DNA of 41,412 nucleotides from the NCBI GenBank assembly GCA_028822375.1, contig JAPKDW010000008.1, positions 1-41,412 of the forward strand. The letters run 5' to 3'. A program made the position numbers and the translations under genes. Below the pieces are notes generated by a model that was not told the origin of the DNA, made no database searches, and worked only from the letters and a program-made list of their open reading frames with translations. Origin of the DNA: Opitutaceae bacterium. GTDB lineage: Bacteria > Verrucomicrobiota > Verrucomicrobiia > Opitutales > Opitutaceae. Shown piece after piece: positions 20,403 to 35,230 of this stretch (the stretch's first letter is position 1; the number at the start of each line of letters is the position of its first letter).

Positions 20403-23111
20403 ATGCCAAACGCCCTCCACATCTCCCCTCTCGGCCACCTCCTCCTCTCACCAGGCATCGAAACCACCCTCGACACCCAAGACGCCAGCGCCAAAAAGGT
20501 AATCCGCGCCTTCCAACGCTCCTCCGCCGAAGGCCTCTTCACCCTCGCCGCCACCGCCACCCACTCCCTCGACCCCAGCCTAATCTACTGGAAAGACTTC
20601 GCCTCCCGGTACCTCGCCGCTCTCTGCCGCCTCAACGCTGCCGCGCTCGACATCGCCACCCACATCGAAGCCCCGCGCGAAGAAGAGCTCGCCTTCATCG
20701 CCCTCAACGCCCCTCCCACAACCGGTGCCGAATATCTGAATACAGACACCCTCGTCGCCCACTGGATCGACCTCACCCAGTGGACCCAACAAGAACTCCA
20801 AGAAAGCCAACTCCCCCTCTCCGACTGGCTAAAGAAAAATGCCCCAAAATGGCACCAAGTCGGCCGCGTCTGCTTCCACCTCGCCGAAAACCCCAACGAC
20901 CCCGAATGCCCCTTCGCCTTCATGGCCACCTACGCGCCCACCATTACCCAAACCGGCCGCGTCCAATTTCTCCCCCTCGGAAACGCCCTCCAAGAATACG
21001 CCGGCAGCCAAAACAAAACCAAACTCATCCAACTCCTCGAACCCGTCCATCACGCTTCCCAACAAATCCCATTCGTATCCCGTTTAGTAGATACAGGCGA
21101 CATCTACCATCCTCTCGCCTGGACGCCCCAAGAAGCCCACAGCTTCCTCAAATCCATCCCCCAACTTGAAGAAAACGGCCTGCTCACTCGACTCCCCAAC
21201 TGGTGGCGAACCCGAAAACGCGCCCAAGCCTCCGTCACCGTCGGCGAAGAAACCAAAAGCCTCTTCGGCGTCAACACCCTCCTCAACTTCCGCGTCCAAG
21301 TCGCCCTCGGAGACCAAAATCTCAGCCAAGCGGAAATCGACGCCCTGCTCGCCGGACCCGACGGACTCGTAAAGCTCAACGGCCAATGGATCGAAGTCGA
21401 TAAAGAGAAACTCCAACAAGCCCTCACCCACTGGGAAAAAGTCCAAGCCGCCGCCGCCGGCGGCGCCATAACCTTCGCCCAAGGCATGCGCCTCCTCGCC
21501 GGTGCCAGCCAATACACCGGCACCCAAGACGAAAACGACCCCCAAGAAATCCTAGAATGGACCGCCATCAATGCCGGCACCTGGCTCGCCGACATCCTCG
21601 CCCAACTACGCGACCCCAAAAAAATCTCCCCCAAACAAAAACATCCCAACCTCCAAGGCACCCTCCGCCCCTATCAAGAAGACGGATACAGCTGGCTTCT
21701 ACTCCTCACCCAACTAAAACTCGGCGCCTGCCTCGCCGACGACATGGGCCTCGGAAAAACCATCCAAATCATCGCCCTCCTCCTCTCCCTAAAAGACAAA
21801 ACCCTTCATCATTCATCCCTCACCCTTCATCCTTCTCTCCTCGTCCTCCCCGCCTCGCTGCTCGCCAACTGGAAAAGCGAATTCGAAAAATTCGCCCCCA
21901 GCCTCCGTCTCAAATTTCTCCACCCCTCCGAAACCCCCAAAGCCGAACTCGAAGCCCTCTCCCAAGACCCCCAAACAAGCCTCGCTCAAACCGACATCGC
22001 CCTCACCACCTACGGCATGATCACACGCCAAGATTGGATTTCGGATACAGACTGGAATCTCGTCATCCTCGACGAAGCCCAAGCCATAAAAAACCCTAAC
22101 ACCCGCCAAACCCGCGCCGTCAAAAAACTGAAAAGCCAAACCCGCATCGCCCTCACCGGCACGCCCATCGAAAACAAACTTACCGATCTCTGGTCCCTCT
22201 TCGACTTCGCCTGCCCCGGACTCCTAGGCAACGCCGCCACCTTCCACGAATACACCAAAACCCTCTCCACCAAAGAAGGCCCCAACTACGCCCCCCTGCG
22301 CCAACTCGTATCCCCCTACATACTACGCCGCCTTAAAACTGACAAAAACGTAATCTCCGACCTCCCCGAAAAAACCGAAGTCAACGCCTACTGCAACCTC
22401 GCCCCCAAACAAGCCACCCTTTACCAAAAAGCCGTCCGCGAACTAGCCGCAGGCCTCAAAGACTCCGAAGGCATCCAACGAAGTGGCCTCGTCCTCACCA
22501 CCCTCATGCGGCTCAAGCAAATCTGCAACCACCCCAGCCAAGCGACAGGAGATAACGAATACAAACCTGCCTCCAGCGGAAAATTCGAACGCCTCCGCGA
22601 GCTCTGCGAAGAAATCGCCGCCCGCCAAGAAAAAGTCCTGATTTTTACCCAATTCAAAGAAATCATCGACCCGCTCACCCTCTTCCTCGCCGACATCTTT
22701 AAACGTCCCGGCCTCAGCCTCCACGGCGGCACCCCCGTCTCTCAACGCAAAAAACACGTCGACGCCTTTCAAAAAGAAAACGGCCCCCCTTTCTTCGTGC
22801 TCTCCCTCAAAGCCGGCGGCTCCGGCCTCACCCTCACCGCCGCCAGCCACGTCATCCACTTCGACCGCTGGTGGAACCCCGCCGTAGAAAACCAGGCCAC
22901 CGACCGCGCCTTCCGGATCGGCCAAAAGAAAAACGTGCTCGTGCACAAATTCATATCCCGAGGCAGCGTCGAAGAAAAAGTCGACCGCCTCATCGCCGAA
23001 AAACGCTCCCTCGCCGACAGCCTCCTCGAAGGCGAAGCCCAACCCAAACTCACCGACCTCACCGACACCGAACTCCTAGACCTAATCTCCCTAGACATCA
23101 CCCAAAGATAG
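20403..23111 (+). CDS. SNF2-family DNA-dependent ATPase
   Basis: A 902-aa Swi2/Snf2-type translocase. The ATPase core starts near residue 415: motif I ADDMGLGKT (445-453), motif II DEAQ (557-560), motif III ALTGTPIENKLTDLWSLFDF, motif IV LIFTQFKEI, motif V LKAGGSGLTLTAASHV and motif VI ATDRAFRIGQ near 833. The first 400 residues are a separate N-terminal region of the kind seen in bacterial SNF2 proteins. A C/T-rich repeat lies inside the coding sequence (21812-21834) and encodes part of a variable loop between motifs I and Ia. The next gene, 80 bp on, encodes a SWIM zinc-finger protein, a known genomic partner of bacterial SNF2 ATPases. A role in remodelling protein-DNA complexes is inferred. 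Confidence 0.93.
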   Translation: MPNALHISPLGHLLLSPGIETTLDTQDASAKKVIRAFQRSSAEGLFTLAATATHSLDPSLIYWKDFASRYLAALCRLNAAALDIATHIEAPREEELAFIALNAPPTTGAEYLNTDTLVAHWIDLTQWTQQELQESQLPLSDWLKKNAPKWHQVGRVCFHLAENPNDPECPFAFMATYAPTITQTGRVQFLPLGNALQEYAGSQNKTKLIQLLEPVHHASQQIPFVSRLVDTGDIYHPLAWTPQEAHSFLKSIPQLEENGLLTRLPNWWRTRKRAQASVTVGEETKSLFGVNTLLNFRVQVALGDQNLSQAEIDALLAGPDGLVKLNGQWIEVDKEKLQQALTHWEKVQAAAAGGAITFAQGMRLLAGASQYTGTQDENDPQEILEWTAINAGTWLADILAQLRDPKKISPKQKHPNLQGTLRPYQEDGYSWLLLLTQLKLGACLADDMGLGKTIQIIALLLSLKDKTLHHSSLTLHPSLLVLPASLLANWKSEFEKFAPSLRLKFLHPSETPKAELEALSQDPQTSLAQTDIALTTYGMITRQDWISDTDWNLVILDEAQAIKNPNTRQTRAVKKLKSQTRIALTGTPIENKLTDLWSLFDFACPGLLGNAATFHEYTKTLSTKEGPNYAPLRQLVSPYILRRLKTDKNVISDLPEKTEVNAYCNLAPKQATLYQKAVRELAAGLKDSEGIQRSGLVLTTLMRLKQICNHPSQATGDNEYKPASSGKFERLRELCEEIAARQEKVLIFTQFKEIIDPLTLFLADIFKRPGLSLHGGTPVSQRKKHVDAFQKENGPPFFVLSLKAGGSGLTLTAASHVIHFDRWWNPAVENQATDRAFRIGQKKNVLVHKFISRGSVEEKVDRLIAEKRSLADSLLEGEAQPKLTDLTDTELLDLISLDITQR
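21812..21834 (+). repeat. Leader-type C/T-rich repeat inside the SNF2 gene
   Basis: 23 bp, starting TTCATCCCTCACCC and ending CTTCATCCTT, identical at 22 of 23 positions to the untranslated leader at 23163-23185. In frame it encodes part of SSLTLHPSLL. Confidence 0.8.
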
Positions 23112-23120
23112 AGCAGCCAA

Positions 23121-23151
23121 AGGTAGGGCGGCATCGCCGAGGCCGCAGCAA
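23121..23151 (+). repeat. GTAGGG hairpin repeat, GCGGC/GCCGC form, copy 4
   Basis: 31 bp identical to the copy at 19632-19662, same strand, starting 10 bp after the SNF2 stop and ending about 40 bp before the SWIM gene. It sits between two genes that look co-transcribed. Confidence 0.85.
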
Positions 23152-23162
23152 CCCAAATCCAC

Positions 23163-23185
23163 TTCATCCTTCACCCTTCATCCTT
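23163..23185 (+). repeat. C/T-rich leader repeat before the SWIM gene
   Basis: TTCATCCTTCACCC followed by TTCATCCTT, ending 6 bp before ATG 23192, where a Shine-Dalgarno would normally be. A related tract (TTCAACCTTCATCCTTCAA, 29819-29837) ends 8 bp before the sulfatase ATG. Confidence 0.7.
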
Positions 23186-23191
23186 AAAAAA

Positions 23192-24274
23192 ATGTCCCGC
23201 TACAACGACTATGACGAATACCCCCGCTACATCCCCGTAGCCGAACGCCAAGCCAACGCCACCAAAGAAGTCAAAAAGCTCCGCAAGCAGGGCTACGACA
23301 TCCAGCCCATCGAGTCCTTCCGCAACCGAAAGATCGCCCAATCCTTTTGGGGCCACGCCTGGTGCCGTCACCTCGAAACCTACAGCGACTATGAAAGCCG
23401 TCTCCCGCGCGGCCGCACCTACGTACGTAACGGCTCAGTTTGCCACCTCGAAATCAAATCCGGCCAAATCGAAGCCTTCGTTAGCGGCTCCGAACTCTAT
23501 GAAATCAAGATCAAAATCGACAAACTGCCTGCCGCAAAATGGACTGCCCTAAAAAAGAGCTGCACCGGTAAAATCGGTAGCCTCCTTGAACTTCTCCAAG
23601 GCAAACTCTCCGACGAAGTTATGACCTTCGTCACCAATCCAAGAGAGGGCCTCTTCCCCGATCCCCAAGAAATCCACCTCGACTGTAACTGCCCCGACTA
23701 CGCCGACCTCTGCAAGCACCTCGCCTCCGTTCTCTACGGCGTCGGCGTGCGCCTCGACGACCAACCCGAGCTCCTCTTCCTCCTCCGAGGAGTCGATCAA
23801 AACGAACTCATCGAGACCAGCCTCAGCGGAACCTTCGACGCCTCCAAACCCAGCAAACGCCGCCGCATAGCCACGACCGACCTCTCCAATATCTTCGGAG
23901 TAGACGTCTCCTCCGAAGCTCCCCTCGAAACCAAAACGCCCGACTCCCCAGCTCCTCTAAAACGCCCAATCCCCAAAACGCCCGCCAAGAAAGCAGCCAA
24001 AAAAGTCGCCCGTAAAAAGAAACGTGCCCCCAAGAAAACCACCCCTCCCCCATCCCCGAAAACCGGAAACGATATCCGCAAACTCCGCCGTAAATTCGGC
24101 ATGAGCGAATACGAATTCGGATTCATAATAGACGTCAGCGCCCAAACCATCGGCAACTGGGAAAGCAAAGGCAAATCCCCTCACAATGCTCGAAAAAAAA
24201 ATCAGCAAGAACTGGATACAATCGCCCCCCTCACAAAACCCGCAGCCTGGGATCGATTGAACGAATATTTATAA
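23192..24274 (+). CDS. SWIM zinc-finger protein with Lys-rich tail and C-terminal HTH
   Basis: A 360-aa protein. The SWIM zinc finger is Cys165-x-Cys167-x6-Cys174-x-His176 within CNCPDYADLCKHLASVLYGV. Upstream, QSFWGHAWCRHLETYSDYES and RGRTYVRNGSVCHLEI are typical of SWIM partners of SNF2 ATPases. From about 256 to 293 it is Lys/Pro/Ala-rich (TPAKKAAKKVARKKKRAPKK), like histone H1 or chlamydial Hc tails. Residues about 295-330 form a helix-turn-helix (LRRKFGMSEYEFGFIIDVSA, QTIGNWESKG), as in plant-type MerR/XRE-like DNA binders. Zinc finger, basic tail and HTH together point to DNA binding next to the SNF2 motor. I chose ATG 23192; the frame is open upstream only as a shadow of the SNF2 gene. 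Confidence 0.88.
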   Translation: MSRYNDYDEYPRYIPVAERQANATKEVKKLRKQGYDIQPIESFRNRKIAQSFWGHAWCRHLETYSDYESRLPRGRTYVRNGSVCHLEIKSGQIEAFVSGSELYEIKIKIDKLPAAKWTALKKSCTGKIGSLLELLQGKLSDEVMTFVTNPREGLFPDPQEIHLDCNCPDYADLCKHLASVLYGVGVRLDDQPELLFLLRGVDQNELIETSLSGTFDASKPSKRRRIATTDLSNIFGVDVSSEAPLETKTPDSPAPLKRPIPKTPAKKAAKKVARKKKRAPKKTTPPPSPKTGNDIRKLRRKFGMSEYEFGFIIDVSAQTIGNWESKGKSPHNARKKNQQELDTIAPLTKPAAWDRLNEYL

Positions 24275-32026: not shown

Positions 32027-35000
32027 ATGGGGAAAACGATACAAGAATGGAAAATCGAAGTCGAAAAGACTGTCGGACGAGCGCTTTCCAAAAACGAAAA
32101 TGACTACTTCGAGGTCCTCACCGAGCTGCTCGACATGCTCGACTGGAAAGATGCCTTGCATGCCAAGGATGTCGCCTTGCTCCACTCCAAGCTTCTTTTT
32201 GTAGAAAAAGACCCCAAAGCGCCGCTTACCAACGGGCTCTGGATCGAGCAACCAGAAGACGAGTATTCGCTTTGGCAATACATCGCATTACTTCTAGACG
32301 ATCGTAACCTCGATATACCAAAATACCTCGAGGAGCATACTGACGTCAACGCAACCCGTTCGGAGATTCTTTCCCGTCAACGCCAAAAAGAAGCGCGTCT
32401 TTGGAAAAACAGACTCGGCAACTTATCCCAACGTCGCGAATTCAGCCATACCGGCTCTCTCGACGTCCGACTGAAGCTCCAGGGGCGCTCACTCAAATGG
32501 GAAGGCAAAGCCGGCGGCTATTCTGACTACGCGCCTCTCGCTGCCAAGGAAATGGCCCAGTGGCTCGCCAAGGATTTCGGATTCCTCGATCGCTTTGCCG
32601 CTCCAAGCCTCGCCCTCTGCGCTCTTTTCCAAGAATACTATCGATCGACCCAGCGAACGCGTATCGATCTAGATAAAGCAGAAGACTGCTCCTTCCTCAA
32701 TTTACTTATCCATCGAGCGGATACCCGCGACCGGATCGTCAACAAGGAAGGCATTTCCCTATCGATTCGCGAAGAGCGGCTCAAGTGGACCGGTTCCGAG
32801 GATGGACCCAACAACCTAGGGAACTACCAGCTCTCACTGGTTTTCGAAGACGGACAACCCGCTCCCTACTCGATGGCCTACCTCCCTGGCTCGCAAGCTC
32901 TCTACCTTCAAGGCGATGCCCTCTATCGCGGCCCGAACTCGCTAAAAGCAGACGCCGATCCGAATCAGCCTTTCGATATCCCGCAAGAAGCAATCGAGAG
33001 CCCCGAGGGATTACTCTTCCTTCGAAACCAAAGTCTCGAGATTCCAGAACAGCTCAAAGGACAAATCGTAGCCGTGCCGCTTCAATCGCGGATTTATTGC
33101 GATGCTGTCGAAAATAAGGACGCGCTGAATCGGCATAGCGTATTGCGCGTTTCGCTCGCAGCAGTCTCGCGCGACCAAAAACACTGGTTCGTCCTCACCG
33201 ACCAAGGCTGGGCCCCTTCGCCAAACCTCGAAACCGACGAAGAATCGGCTCCCGCGGAAAAAGGCGCCTTATTCGAGTATCCGGATGCCACTCCATATCT
33301 CACTCCGTTTCACGATTTCGAGCTGACCGAAGTCGACCAAGGAATTTGGCAACGTCCTATAGATCTAGATTTCCCCAGCGCCTTCACTCACTGGATACAG
33401 CGTTTTCCGAGCGAGCTTCAAATAATCGCCGACGATGAACTCGACACGCTCGTCGATGGAAAACCGATTGGTCGCTACGCCCTACGCATCCATTCCAACG
33501 ACAACCAAGATTGGTTCGACGTTCGCTTGGAACCTGAGCTGCTCGATACAAATCTCACCGAGAACGAACAACAGTTGCTCCTCAAGGCCAAAGGAGACTT
33601 CGTTCACCTTCCTGGCAAAGGTTGGAAACGCTTCGACCCGACCGTAGCGCCTTCCCAACAAGAGTTGCTTCACCAACTGGGTTTGAACAACGACGAGTCC
33701 ACAACCGACTCGCATTCGTTTCACGCGATGCAACTCGCGGAGACGCGCCTAGAAGATGCCGCAGAAAAAGCGCTCGTCCGCAGTATCCGAAAACGAGCCA
33801 AAGATATTTCCGCCAAAACACCTGCAAACCTTCCCAAGGGGATCCAAACTCAGCTCCGTCCTTATCAAGAAGAAGGATTCCGCTTTTTGTCCTTCCTCTC
33901 GAACAACCGATTCGGAGGTATTCTCGCGGATGACATGGGACTGGGTAAAACGCTCCAGGCCCTTACATGGCTAACTTGGCTGAAACTGCACCGTCCACCC
34001 GAAGAAAACTTCCAAGTTCTCGTCGTCTGTCCGAAATCCGTGATGCACGTCTGGAAGAAGGAAATCGAGCGCCACACGGAGTTGCTTTCGATCGCCGTTT
34101 ACGACCCAGCCTTAGTGCACTCAGTCGCCTGGAAAGCATCTGAAATCGACATCCTCGTCGCCAACTACTCCCAACTGCGCATAAACCGCTCATTCTTCCT
34201 CGAACAAGAATGGACCGTCGCCGCTCTCGACGAAGGACAATACATTAAGAACCCACAATCGCAAACGGCAAAAACCGCATGCGCACTCAAATCCGAGTAT
34301 CGTATCATTATTACCGGCACGCCGATTGAAAATCGAATTCTCGATTTGTGGAGTCTCTTCGCCTTCGCCATGCCAGGACTCTTAGGGAATCAAGCTTCCT
34401 TCAAGCGCCAGTACAAAGAATCCGACCCCGAGTCCCCCAAGCGTCTATACAATCGGACACGGCACTTCATGCTGCGCCGCAGCAAATCGCAGGTCGCCCC
34501 AGACCTCCCTGACCGTATTGAAGAAACGCTTACATGCGAAATGGAAGGCGATCAAAAAGATCTCTATACTGCCGAACTCAAGAATGTTCAGCAAAGCCTA
34601 CGTAGCATTCAATCCGACGCGGAATTCGACAAAAAACGCTTTAATATTCTCTCGTCACTGCTCCGCCTTCGCCAAATCTGCTGTCACCCGCGTCTGATCG
34701 ATCCTGCTTACGCCGACATGAAAAGCGCCAAGATGGAAGCCTTGATCGACCGTGTGTCCGAACTAATGGACGAAGGCCACAAGGTTCTCATCTTCAGCCA
34801 ATTCGTCGAGATGCTCGAAATCATTCGAGGCGAGCTTGAAACCCTTGGTTGCAAGCATCTCATGCTAACAGGCAAAACCAAGAATCGCGAAGAGTTAGTC
34901 GACCAGTTCCAAGAAGACAAATCGATCACCGCCTTCCTGCTCTCGCTGCGAGCGGCCGGCTCGGGCTTAAACCTCACTTCCGCCTCTTACGTCATTCTTT

Positions 35001-35230
35001 ACGATCCATGGTGGAATCCGGCCGTCGAAGCGCAAGCCATCGACCGGACTCACCGCATCGGCCAAGAAAATGCAGTAAACGCCTACCGCTTAATCGCGCA
35101 GGGAACAGTGGAAGACAAAATACAAAGTCTACAGCTCAAGAAAGAGACCCTGGCCAACGAAGTGGTCCAAGAGGAATCCCTCAATCAGATCCTCAACCTC
35201 GATCGCCTCAAGAGCATCCTCCAAGCCTAG
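32027..35230 (+). CDS. Large SNF2-family DNA-dependent ATPase
   Basis: A 1067-aa Swi2/Snf2 protein, larger than the one at 20403. The ATPase core starts near residue 605: motif I ADDMGLGKT (634-642), motif II DEGQ (735-738; most SNF2 have DEAH or DEAQ), motif III IITGTPIENRILDLWSLFAF, HFMLRRSKSQVAPDL, motif V LRAAGSGLNLTSASYV and motif VI AIDRTHRIGQ. The N-terminal 600 residues are a long region with no zinc finger or other named domain I can place. It is a distinct paralogue, not a copy: no SWIM gene is adjacent. A translocase or DNA-remodelling role is likely, substrate unknown. It is followed convergently by an M16 protease. Confidence 0.92.
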   Translation: MGKTIQEWKIEVEKTVGRALSKNENDYFEVLTELLDMLDWKDALHAKDVALLHSKLLFVEKDPKAPLTNGLWIEQPEDEYSLWQYIALLLDDRNLDIPKYLEEHTDVNATRSEILSRQRQKEARLWKNRLGNLSQRREFSHTGSLDVRLKLQGRSLKWEGKAGGYSDYAPLAAKEMAQWLAKDFGFLDRFAAPSLALCALFQEYYRSTQRTRIDLDKAEDCSFLNLLIHRADTRDRIVNKEGISLSIREERLKWTGSEDGPNNLGNYQLSLVFEDGQPAPYSMAYLPGSQALYLQGDALYRGPNSLKADADPNQPFDIPQEAIESPEGLLFLRNQSLEIPEQLKGQIVAVPLQSRIYCDAVENKDALNRHSVLRVSLAAVSRDQKHWFVLTDQGWAPSPNLETDEESAPAEKGALFEYPDATPYLTPFHDFELTEVDQGIWQRPIDLDFPSAFTHWIQRFPSELQIIADDELDTLVDGKPIGRYALRIHSNDNQDWFDVRLEPELLDTNLTENEQQLLLKAKGDFVHLPGKGWKRFDPTVAPSQQELLHQLGLNNDESTTDSHSFHAMQLAETRLEDAAEKALVRSIRKRAKDISAKTPANLPKGIQTQLRPYQEEGFRFLSFLSNNRFGGILADDMGLGKTLQALTWLTWLKLHRPPEENFQVLVVCPKSVMHVWKKEIERHTELLSIAVYDPALVHSVAWKASEIDILVANYSQLRINRSFFLEQEWTVAALDEGQYIKNPQSQTAKTACALKSEYRIIITGTPIENRILDLWSLFAFAMPGLLGNQASFKRQYKESDPESPKRLYNRTRHFMLRRSKSQVAPDLPDRIEETLTCEMEGDQKDLYTAELKNVQQSLRSIQSDAEFDKKRFNILSSLLRLRQICCHPRLIDPAYADMKSAKMEALIDRVSELMDEGHKVLIFSQFVEMLEIIRGELETLGCKHLMLTGKTKNREELVDQFQEDKSITAFLLSLRAAGSGLNLTSASYVILYDPWWNPAVEAQAIDRTHRIGQENAVNAYRLIAQGTVEDKIQSLQLKKETLANEVVQEESLNQILNLDRLKSILQA

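Follow-up and report, generated by a model that had tools for sequence, protein, structure and literature searches.

A gene for a SNF2-family ATPase followed on the same strand by a gene for a protein with a SWIM finger, a lysine-rich stretch and a C-terminal helix-turn-helix (HTH) raises the question of what the second protein does for the motor, and what its DNA-binding end is for. The two genes lie in contig JAPKDW010000008.1 of an Opitutaceae bacterium (Verrucomicrobiota; assembly GCA_028822375.1), of which positions 1 to 41,412 of the forward strand, the whole stretch analyzed and hereafter called the window, were available. A first-pass annotation, made from the letters alone, had described them as a chromatin-like module, a label that is an analogy, in which the HTH and the basic tail give the motor a DNA-targeting subunit. 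Here it is proposed that the two genes probably encode one machine, composed of a SNF2 translocase and a SWIM partner whose C-terminus would direct the motor on DNA. The elements of the pair are the following:

20403..23111, plus strand: SNF2-family ATPase (SsoRad54-like), 902 amino acids (aa); Pfam SNF2-rel_dom (8.9e-66), Helicase_C and DUF3670, and a match to 1z63
21105..21494, plus strand: DUF3670 (SNF2 helicase protein) region, residues 235-364; Pfam, 119.7 bits
21672..22538, plus strand: SNF2-related motor domain, residues 424-712; Pfam, 222.4 bits
22587..22922, plus strand: helicase C-terminal domain, residues 729-840; Pfam, 73 bits
23192..24274, plus strand: SWIM partner protein, 360 aa, 80 nucleotides (nt) downstream of the SNF2 gene; reading frame, with homologues beside SNF2 in many phyla
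23684..23719, plus strand: SWIM finger ligands C165-x-C167-x6-C174-x-H176; residue positions, invariant in 106 sequences
23912..24064, plus strand: Lys/Pro/Ala-rich linker, residues 241-291; composition, with low model confidence
24053..24271, plus strand: Xre-type HTH domain, residues 288-360; HTH_3 (22.6 bits), model helices and VIA-align to 5jaa_B

The 902-aa open reading frame contains the DDMGLGKT, DEAQ and RIGQ motifs on which the first-pass annotation had based its SNF2 assignment, and both RecA-like lobes are intact, with the SNF2-rel_dom and Helicase_C profiles covered almost end to end. The nearest solved structure by sequence in the PDB is Sulfolobus SNF2/Rad54 (1z63, 412 bits), and the runner-up reaches 244 bits. 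The best NCBIfam model is NF058637 (SCO1167/SCO6262 family helicase), with 566.8 bits over residues 214-897, yet this is far under its equivalog cut-off of 1200 bits. With its motor, its closeness to 1z63 and the adjacent SWIM gene, the protein groups with the SWIM-associated SWI2/SNF2 ATPases of the SsoRad54 type.

The SWIM gene begins 80 nt past the SNF2 gene, as had been read before, with its start taken at the ATG at 23192; the longest listed frame opens upstream, within the SNF2 gene. The four finger ligands had been placed correctly, and C165, C167, C174 and H176 are invariant across 106 aligned family members. The window protein by itself is borderline for both of its Pfam domains, having 19.5 bits for SWIM (cut-off 19.6; 23.2 bits in the genome search) and 22.6 bits for HTH_3 at residues 295-330 (cut-off 23). 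Both assignments can nevertheless be taken as settled because the family members match the two models, 102 of the 106 for SWIM and 76 of the 106 for HTH_3, at an expectation value (E) ≤0.01. The expected Lys/Ala/Pro tail corresponds to residues 241-291, a linker with 13 K, 12 P and 7 A among its 51 residues, which is presumably flexible. In the AlphaFold model, built on an alignment of 75 sequences, this linker has low confidence, the core is mostly confident, and the HTH (residues 291-360) is confident, with block means of the predicted local distance difference test (pLDDT) of 93-98. The HTH has model helices at residues 292-302, 306-313, 317-325, 335-344 and 349-359, which give the five-helix fold of an Xre-type domain. 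For the SWIM core alone, VIA-align found no match above Z 3.1, and the whole model gave a weak alignment of residues 55-208 to ZSWIM8 (9rwz_N; Z 6.5, 98 residues, root-mean-square deviation (rmsd) 5.5).

Relatives of the SWIM protein were considered in two sets. The best 80 genome matches, spanning among others Verrucomicrobiota, Gammaproteobacteria, Desulfobacteraceae, Planctomycetota, Nitrospirota, Acidobacteria and Cyanobacteria, were ordered by their likeness to the complete window protein, which biases the set towards the HTH. Because this set favors HTH-bearing proteins, a core-weighted census was made, with one search using five full-length rows (HTH in the window row only) and the others using the core alone. 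The census includes 161 proteins, 91 from the window's own phylum (window included), 40 from Planctomycetota, 21 from Desulfobacterota and 9 from Pseudomonadota, with phylum labels taken from the centre loci of each sample; five of them run off a contig end and do not enter the module counts, which refer to 156. Matches at ≤180 bits against the SWIM core were dropped (3 from the own phylum, 9 from Pseudomonadota and 9 from Desulfobacterota, the last belonging to a sister subfamily), as were own-phylum matches at ≤133 bits, Planctomycetota matches at ≤140 bits and the partial Planctomycetota matches in G1003 and G843. Some own-phylum census genomes are also among the 80 best-match loci.

The association of the two genes extends far beyond the window. 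In a sample of 387 genomes of the same phylum, with SNF2 orthologs defined by >600 bits, genomes counted one by one without regard to kinship, and both searches assumed to cover identical genomes (their handles agree where both list them), a SNF2 ortholog was found in 91 genomes, all 91 of which also have the SWIM protein, and neither gene was found in 294. The SWIM protein occurs in 93 genomes, and the two without a SNF2 above 600 bits (G165 and G243) may be misses; the SNF2 search scored two candidates per genome, and assembly gaps are also possible. Similarly, among 57 near relatives, own genome included, the same five genomes hold both genes. The co-occurrence persists where the genes are distant from each other or sit on separate contigs, as in genus g65 and most of family f27. 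Unlinked loci with both genes kept include L202, L221, L223, L230, L234, L238-L249 and others (g65, f27, own phylum), and the g65 SWIM proteins that were inspected have lost the tail almost wholly.

The earlier expectation that SWIM proteins adjoin bacterial SNF2 genes holds across phyla. Among the 80 best matches, 72 have a SNF2 gene upstream on the same strand at a distance of up to 400 nt (one of the other eight has it at 615 nt, and seven have no SNF2 in the stretch available), and the same arrangement was found in the census in 57 of 91 loci of the own phylum, 39 of 40 in Planctomycetota, 19 of 21 in Desulfobacterota and all nine in Pseudomonadota. Over 196 adjacent loci, a few of them counted twice, the intergenic gap has a median of 10 nt, and 50 pairs overlap. 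Apart from SNF2, the only recurrent neighbour found for the SWIM gene, no gene is shared by the surroundings of more than 4 of the 80 loci. The recurrence of the same gene order and architecture across phyla indicates that the arrangement in the window is not due to chance. Additionally, the distance matrices of the SNF2 protein (last 430 residues) and of the SWIM core are correlated (r 0.85, n=184; maximum of 1000 permutations 0.15; kinship ignored). In the sister subfamily, whose own-phylum members score 78-133 bits for the SWIM core and 450-510 bits for SNF2, the two co-occur in 16 of 19 cases, and they share a single reading frame in four of the ten loci inspected (L272, L273, L274 and L280), L280 being a Wolbachia phage WO record. 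Because of the co-occurrence in both directions (91/91 and 91/93), the correlated divergence and the sister-subfamily fusions, the view that the SNF2 and SWIM proteins are partners is supported, as far as sequence comparison can tell.

A pair of this kind could also be a system of defence against phages or plasmids, with the SNF2 protein acting on incoming DNA and the SWIM protein sensing it. PADLOC models for ZorD (415 bits) and DpdE (400 bits) match the SNF2 protein, its distribution is patchy (the five of 57 near relatives), SWIM relatives were found on 114 plasmid records, 54 of them predicted to be conjugative, and the phage WO record carries a fusion of the sister subfamily. However, the defence models match mostly the shared motor, and the NCBIfam scores are far under their cut-offs (ZorD 295 of 1500 bits, DrmD 89 of 950 and DpdE 30 of 500), by which the protein does not classify as a Zorya, DISARM or Dpd helicase. 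In the SWIM protein, PADLOC matched a single short segment (PDC-S62, 25 bits); the flanks of the 80 loci have no recurrent partner gene, the other open reading frames of the window having been read as a list without a defence-gene scan; and a plasmid location would fit a selfish or maintenance role equally well. Defence is thus considered quite unlikely as the function of the pair. Regarding the plasmid records themselves, H3-H10 have SWIM relatives on large, often conjugative plasmids, and the Bradyrhizobium plasmid H3 has a SNF2 relative directly upstream of the SWIM gene, with 917 bits to the window SNF2.

With the two proteins as partners, the C-terminal end of the SWIM protein becomes the point of interest. 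The Xre HTH is present in 77 of the 80 best matches, the biased set, and in 34 of 156 census proteins (15/91 in the own phylum, 6/40 in Planctomycetota, 12/21 in Desulfobacterota and 1/9 in Pseudomonadota). The first-pass annotation had taken the three-part form (SWIM, lysine-rich stretch and HTH) as going beyond the usual two-domain SWIM partner and had proposed a search for it in this phylum; with these counts it is not peculiar to the window, and in the own phylum it is found in those 15 of 91 proteins, with the SWIM-SNF2 pairing itself holding as described. As a window-specific novelty, the three-part protein was therefore rejected, being widespread in many phyla.

Other census proteins have different modules in the same slot. 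The H-NS C-terminal domain (PF00816) was found in 5 of 156, all from Pseudomonadota (L120, L121, L124, L125 and L126), with Pfam scores of 47-50 bits in four of the five (cut-off 25.6); the window protein does not have it, and the Pfam tables of four H-NS-type tails contain no further H-NS model. AT-hook motifs were detected by regular expression in 11 of 156 tails, and a SAP domain in one (L165, Planctomycetota; 29.9 bits, cut-off 23.9). Winged-helix-like ends, named from a reading of the sequence pattern, include a type B in 10 of 156, all from Planctomycetota, and a type A in 7 of 156. The type B ends stand behind a basic linker (L160, L161, L162, L164, L166, L167, L262, L265, L266 and L271). 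The remaining proteins have a basic tail only (40/156, a class defined by composition), another kind of end (7/156) or a tail of <25 residues (41/156). In this inventory, the C-terminal slot of the SWIM partners holds unrelated DNA-binding modules that are exchanged among lineages. In a FastTree tree of 232 SWIM cores, which is weak for deep branches, the Xre label needs 16 changes (14 without cut rows) against 75 in shuffles, supported branches force at least 7 of its changes, and AT-hooks need 8 changes. The label is strongly clustered, and Xre has been kept over long times as well as repeatedly gained or lost.

The same data can be read as a neutral, fast-evolving basic tail, to which the HTH and the other domains were fused opportunistically, with no common function. 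The HTH is missing in five of seven same-order relatives, at least 7 Xre-label changes are forced by supported branches, and 48 of 156 ends are short or unclassified, all of which speak for this reading. However, every recognisable module (Xre, H-NS, AT-hook, SAP and the probable winged helices) is of a nucleic-acid-binding kind, and the clustering of the Xre label (16 changes against 75) means that it was long kept, which makes a neutral origin very unlikely. Because the slot holds unrelated DNA-binding modules in relatives, the DNA-targeting role that had been proposed for the HTH and basic tail is still the best reading of the SWIM tail, with the qualification that the HTH itself seems exchangeable.

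The structural relatives of the HTH bring in a third explanation, in which it serves autoregulation, the SWIM protein repressing its own operon in the manner of the HigA and MqsA antitoxins, with no relation to the targeting of the motor. In VIA-align, applied to the matches from Foldseek, the nearest relative of the HTH (residues 288-358) is the HigA2 antitoxin (5jaa_B; Z 9.4, 66 residues, rmsd 2.3), followed by MqsA (3fmy; Z 7.2, 63 residues, rmsd 2.5) and the P22 c2 repressor (Z 7.0). Inverted repeats (6+6) upstream of Xre-type loci number 114, against a block-shuffle mean of 67 and maximum of 89, and at loci without Xre they number 69 (mean 51, maximum 74). However, no half-site is common to more than 2 of 62 upstream regions, which does not exceed the shuffles; some non-palindromic 10-mers are common to up to 6 of the 62, a figure without a shuffled control. 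Although the fold is like that of HigA2 and MqsA, here it is attached to the C-terminus of a SWIM protein whose recurrent neighbour is a SNF2 gene and not a toxin, and the modules that fill the slot in relatives (H-NS domain, AT-hooks, SAP and bare basic tails) are not operator readers. For the Xre form, autoregulation is the strongest competing explanation, and it leaves the H-NS, AT-hook, SAP and basic tails unexplained; overall, it is judged unlikely.

The closest relatives have a mixed content of these parts. The first-pass annotation had named absence of the HTH or the lysine-rich tail from nearly all close homologues as evidence against its proposal, and on one side five of seven same-order genomes lack the HTH (G002, G017, G044, G047 and G102), with a clear HTH in G217 and a weak one in G177 (16.4 bits); lysine-rich tails are retained in G017, G044 and G047. 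After the stop of the SWIM gene in G002, which also lacks most of the tail, no HTH remnant was found, and the next gene begins past a short gap. On the other side, the cores that come next in identity belong to other phyla, and most of them have an HTH, in a neighbourhood largely drawn from the biased set. This mixed presence among close relatives means that the HTH is exchangeable rather than essential.

Several observations weigh against a targeting tail on a dedicated partner. The same-genus sister G002 has a SWIM protein of 263 aa lacking the HTH and a long tail, with a core 74% identical to that of the window protein (69% over residues 7-259). In the census, the 41 of 156 almost tail-less proteins imply that the core must work without a tail, and 26 of these 41, many of one genus, have no adjacent SNF2. 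SNF2 is adjacent in 15 of 41 short-tail proteins against 104 of 115 in the other classes, from which no conclusion was drawn, given that one genus supplies many of the short tails. Regarding the modules, the AT-hook count is based on a regular expression, with the Pfam AT_hook model matching just 3 of 79 tails, and the winged-helix types A and B are weak by sequence, the profile searches against the PDB having given weak hits, many of them to DNA-binding regulators. Six of 156 ends look folded and are unclassified (L122, L152, L231 and L269, counted as basic tail only, and L157 and L270, counted as other); the L269 tail (L269:244-870) has no Pfam match at E 1. Furthermore, Foldseek gave nothing at E ≤0.001, neither in the PDB for the model of the whole SWIM protein nor for that of its core, and neither the SNF2-SWIM co-occurrence nor the distance correlation is corrected for shared ancestry.

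Another SNF2 gene had been mentioned in the first-pass annotation as lying 8 kilobases (kb) away:

32027..35230, plus strand: second SNF2 ATPase, 1067 aa, judged outside the module; Pfam, with its likely G002 counterpart on another contig

The gene is real and larger, starting 7.8 kb past the SWIM gene, with pilus_reg_Snf2 as its top NCBIfam match (415 bits, cut-off 1100). In the sister G002, its likely counterpart, matched by score, is on contig C29, and the SNF2-SWIM module is at 17-20 kb of contig C50 (36 kb), which has no second SNF2, though it extends past the expected place. As a part of the module, the second SNF2 was rejected on these grounds, and it looks like a bystander.

Part of this picture corresponds to known systems. 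In Bacillus subtilis, the ywqA gene adjoins a SWIM gene, ywqB. YwqA, a poorly characterised Swi2/Snf2 translocase, is reported to interact with RNA polymerase (PMC7385302); it is likened here to the window SNF2 by description, not by sequence. The SWIM-associated SWI2/SNF2 group is named in PMC5512222, which reports such ATPases as widely present in mobile systems; the window pair resembles the group in its motor nearest to 1z63 and its adjacent SWIM gene and differs in the HTH of the partner, placed behind a lysine-rich linker as a module exchanged among lineages. Thus, the SNF2-SWIM pair is already known, and the exchangeable DNA-binding slot, H-NS included, is an aspect not found described: the literature search, which reached few subscription journals, returned no SNF2-linked SWIM protein described with an HTH, H-NS or AT-hook tail, nor any experimental function of the pair.

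In the proposed machine, the SNF2 protein would translocate on double-stranded DNA as a member of the SsoRad54 (SWIM-associated) type, with the SWIM protein as its near-obligate partner. The conserved first ~240 residues of the latter, zinc finger included, may dock on the motor, and the flexible basic linker, together with the DNA-binding module, would hold the motor on DNA or guide it there. The Xre-type HTH of the window protein could dimerise on DNA, as the structurally related HigA2 and MqsA do. Because other lineages fill the slot with H-NS, AT-hooks, SAP, winged-helix-like ends or a basic tail, selection seems to be for DNA affinity of a lineage-specific kind and not for one operator. 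From the established biochemistry of SNF2 proteins, the motor may then, by pulling on DNA, remove or displace bound proteins such as nucleoid proteins or stalled RNA polymerase. More tentatively, it is possible that the pair works like a remodeller whose targeting subunit is a plug-in, the SWIM slot being refitted in each lineage with the DNA-reading parts of its own nucleoid or regulatory proteins, be it an H-NS domain, an AT-hook, SAP, Xre, a winged helix or a histone-H1-like tail.

Pairs of SNF2 and SWIM proteins are spread over many bacterial phyla, and the partner is conserved save mainly for its DNA-binding end, which can even be an H-NS domain; this provides a testable hypothesis: the partner would be a targeting subunit, and its end would tell which DNA the motor serves. 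If the plug-in reading is true, the motor would work on DNA covered by such proteins, where it might clear or slide xenogeneic silencers or other roadblocks. The domain fusion ties bacterial SNF2 to nucleoid proteins, and it bears on whether bacteria have remodeller-like activities.

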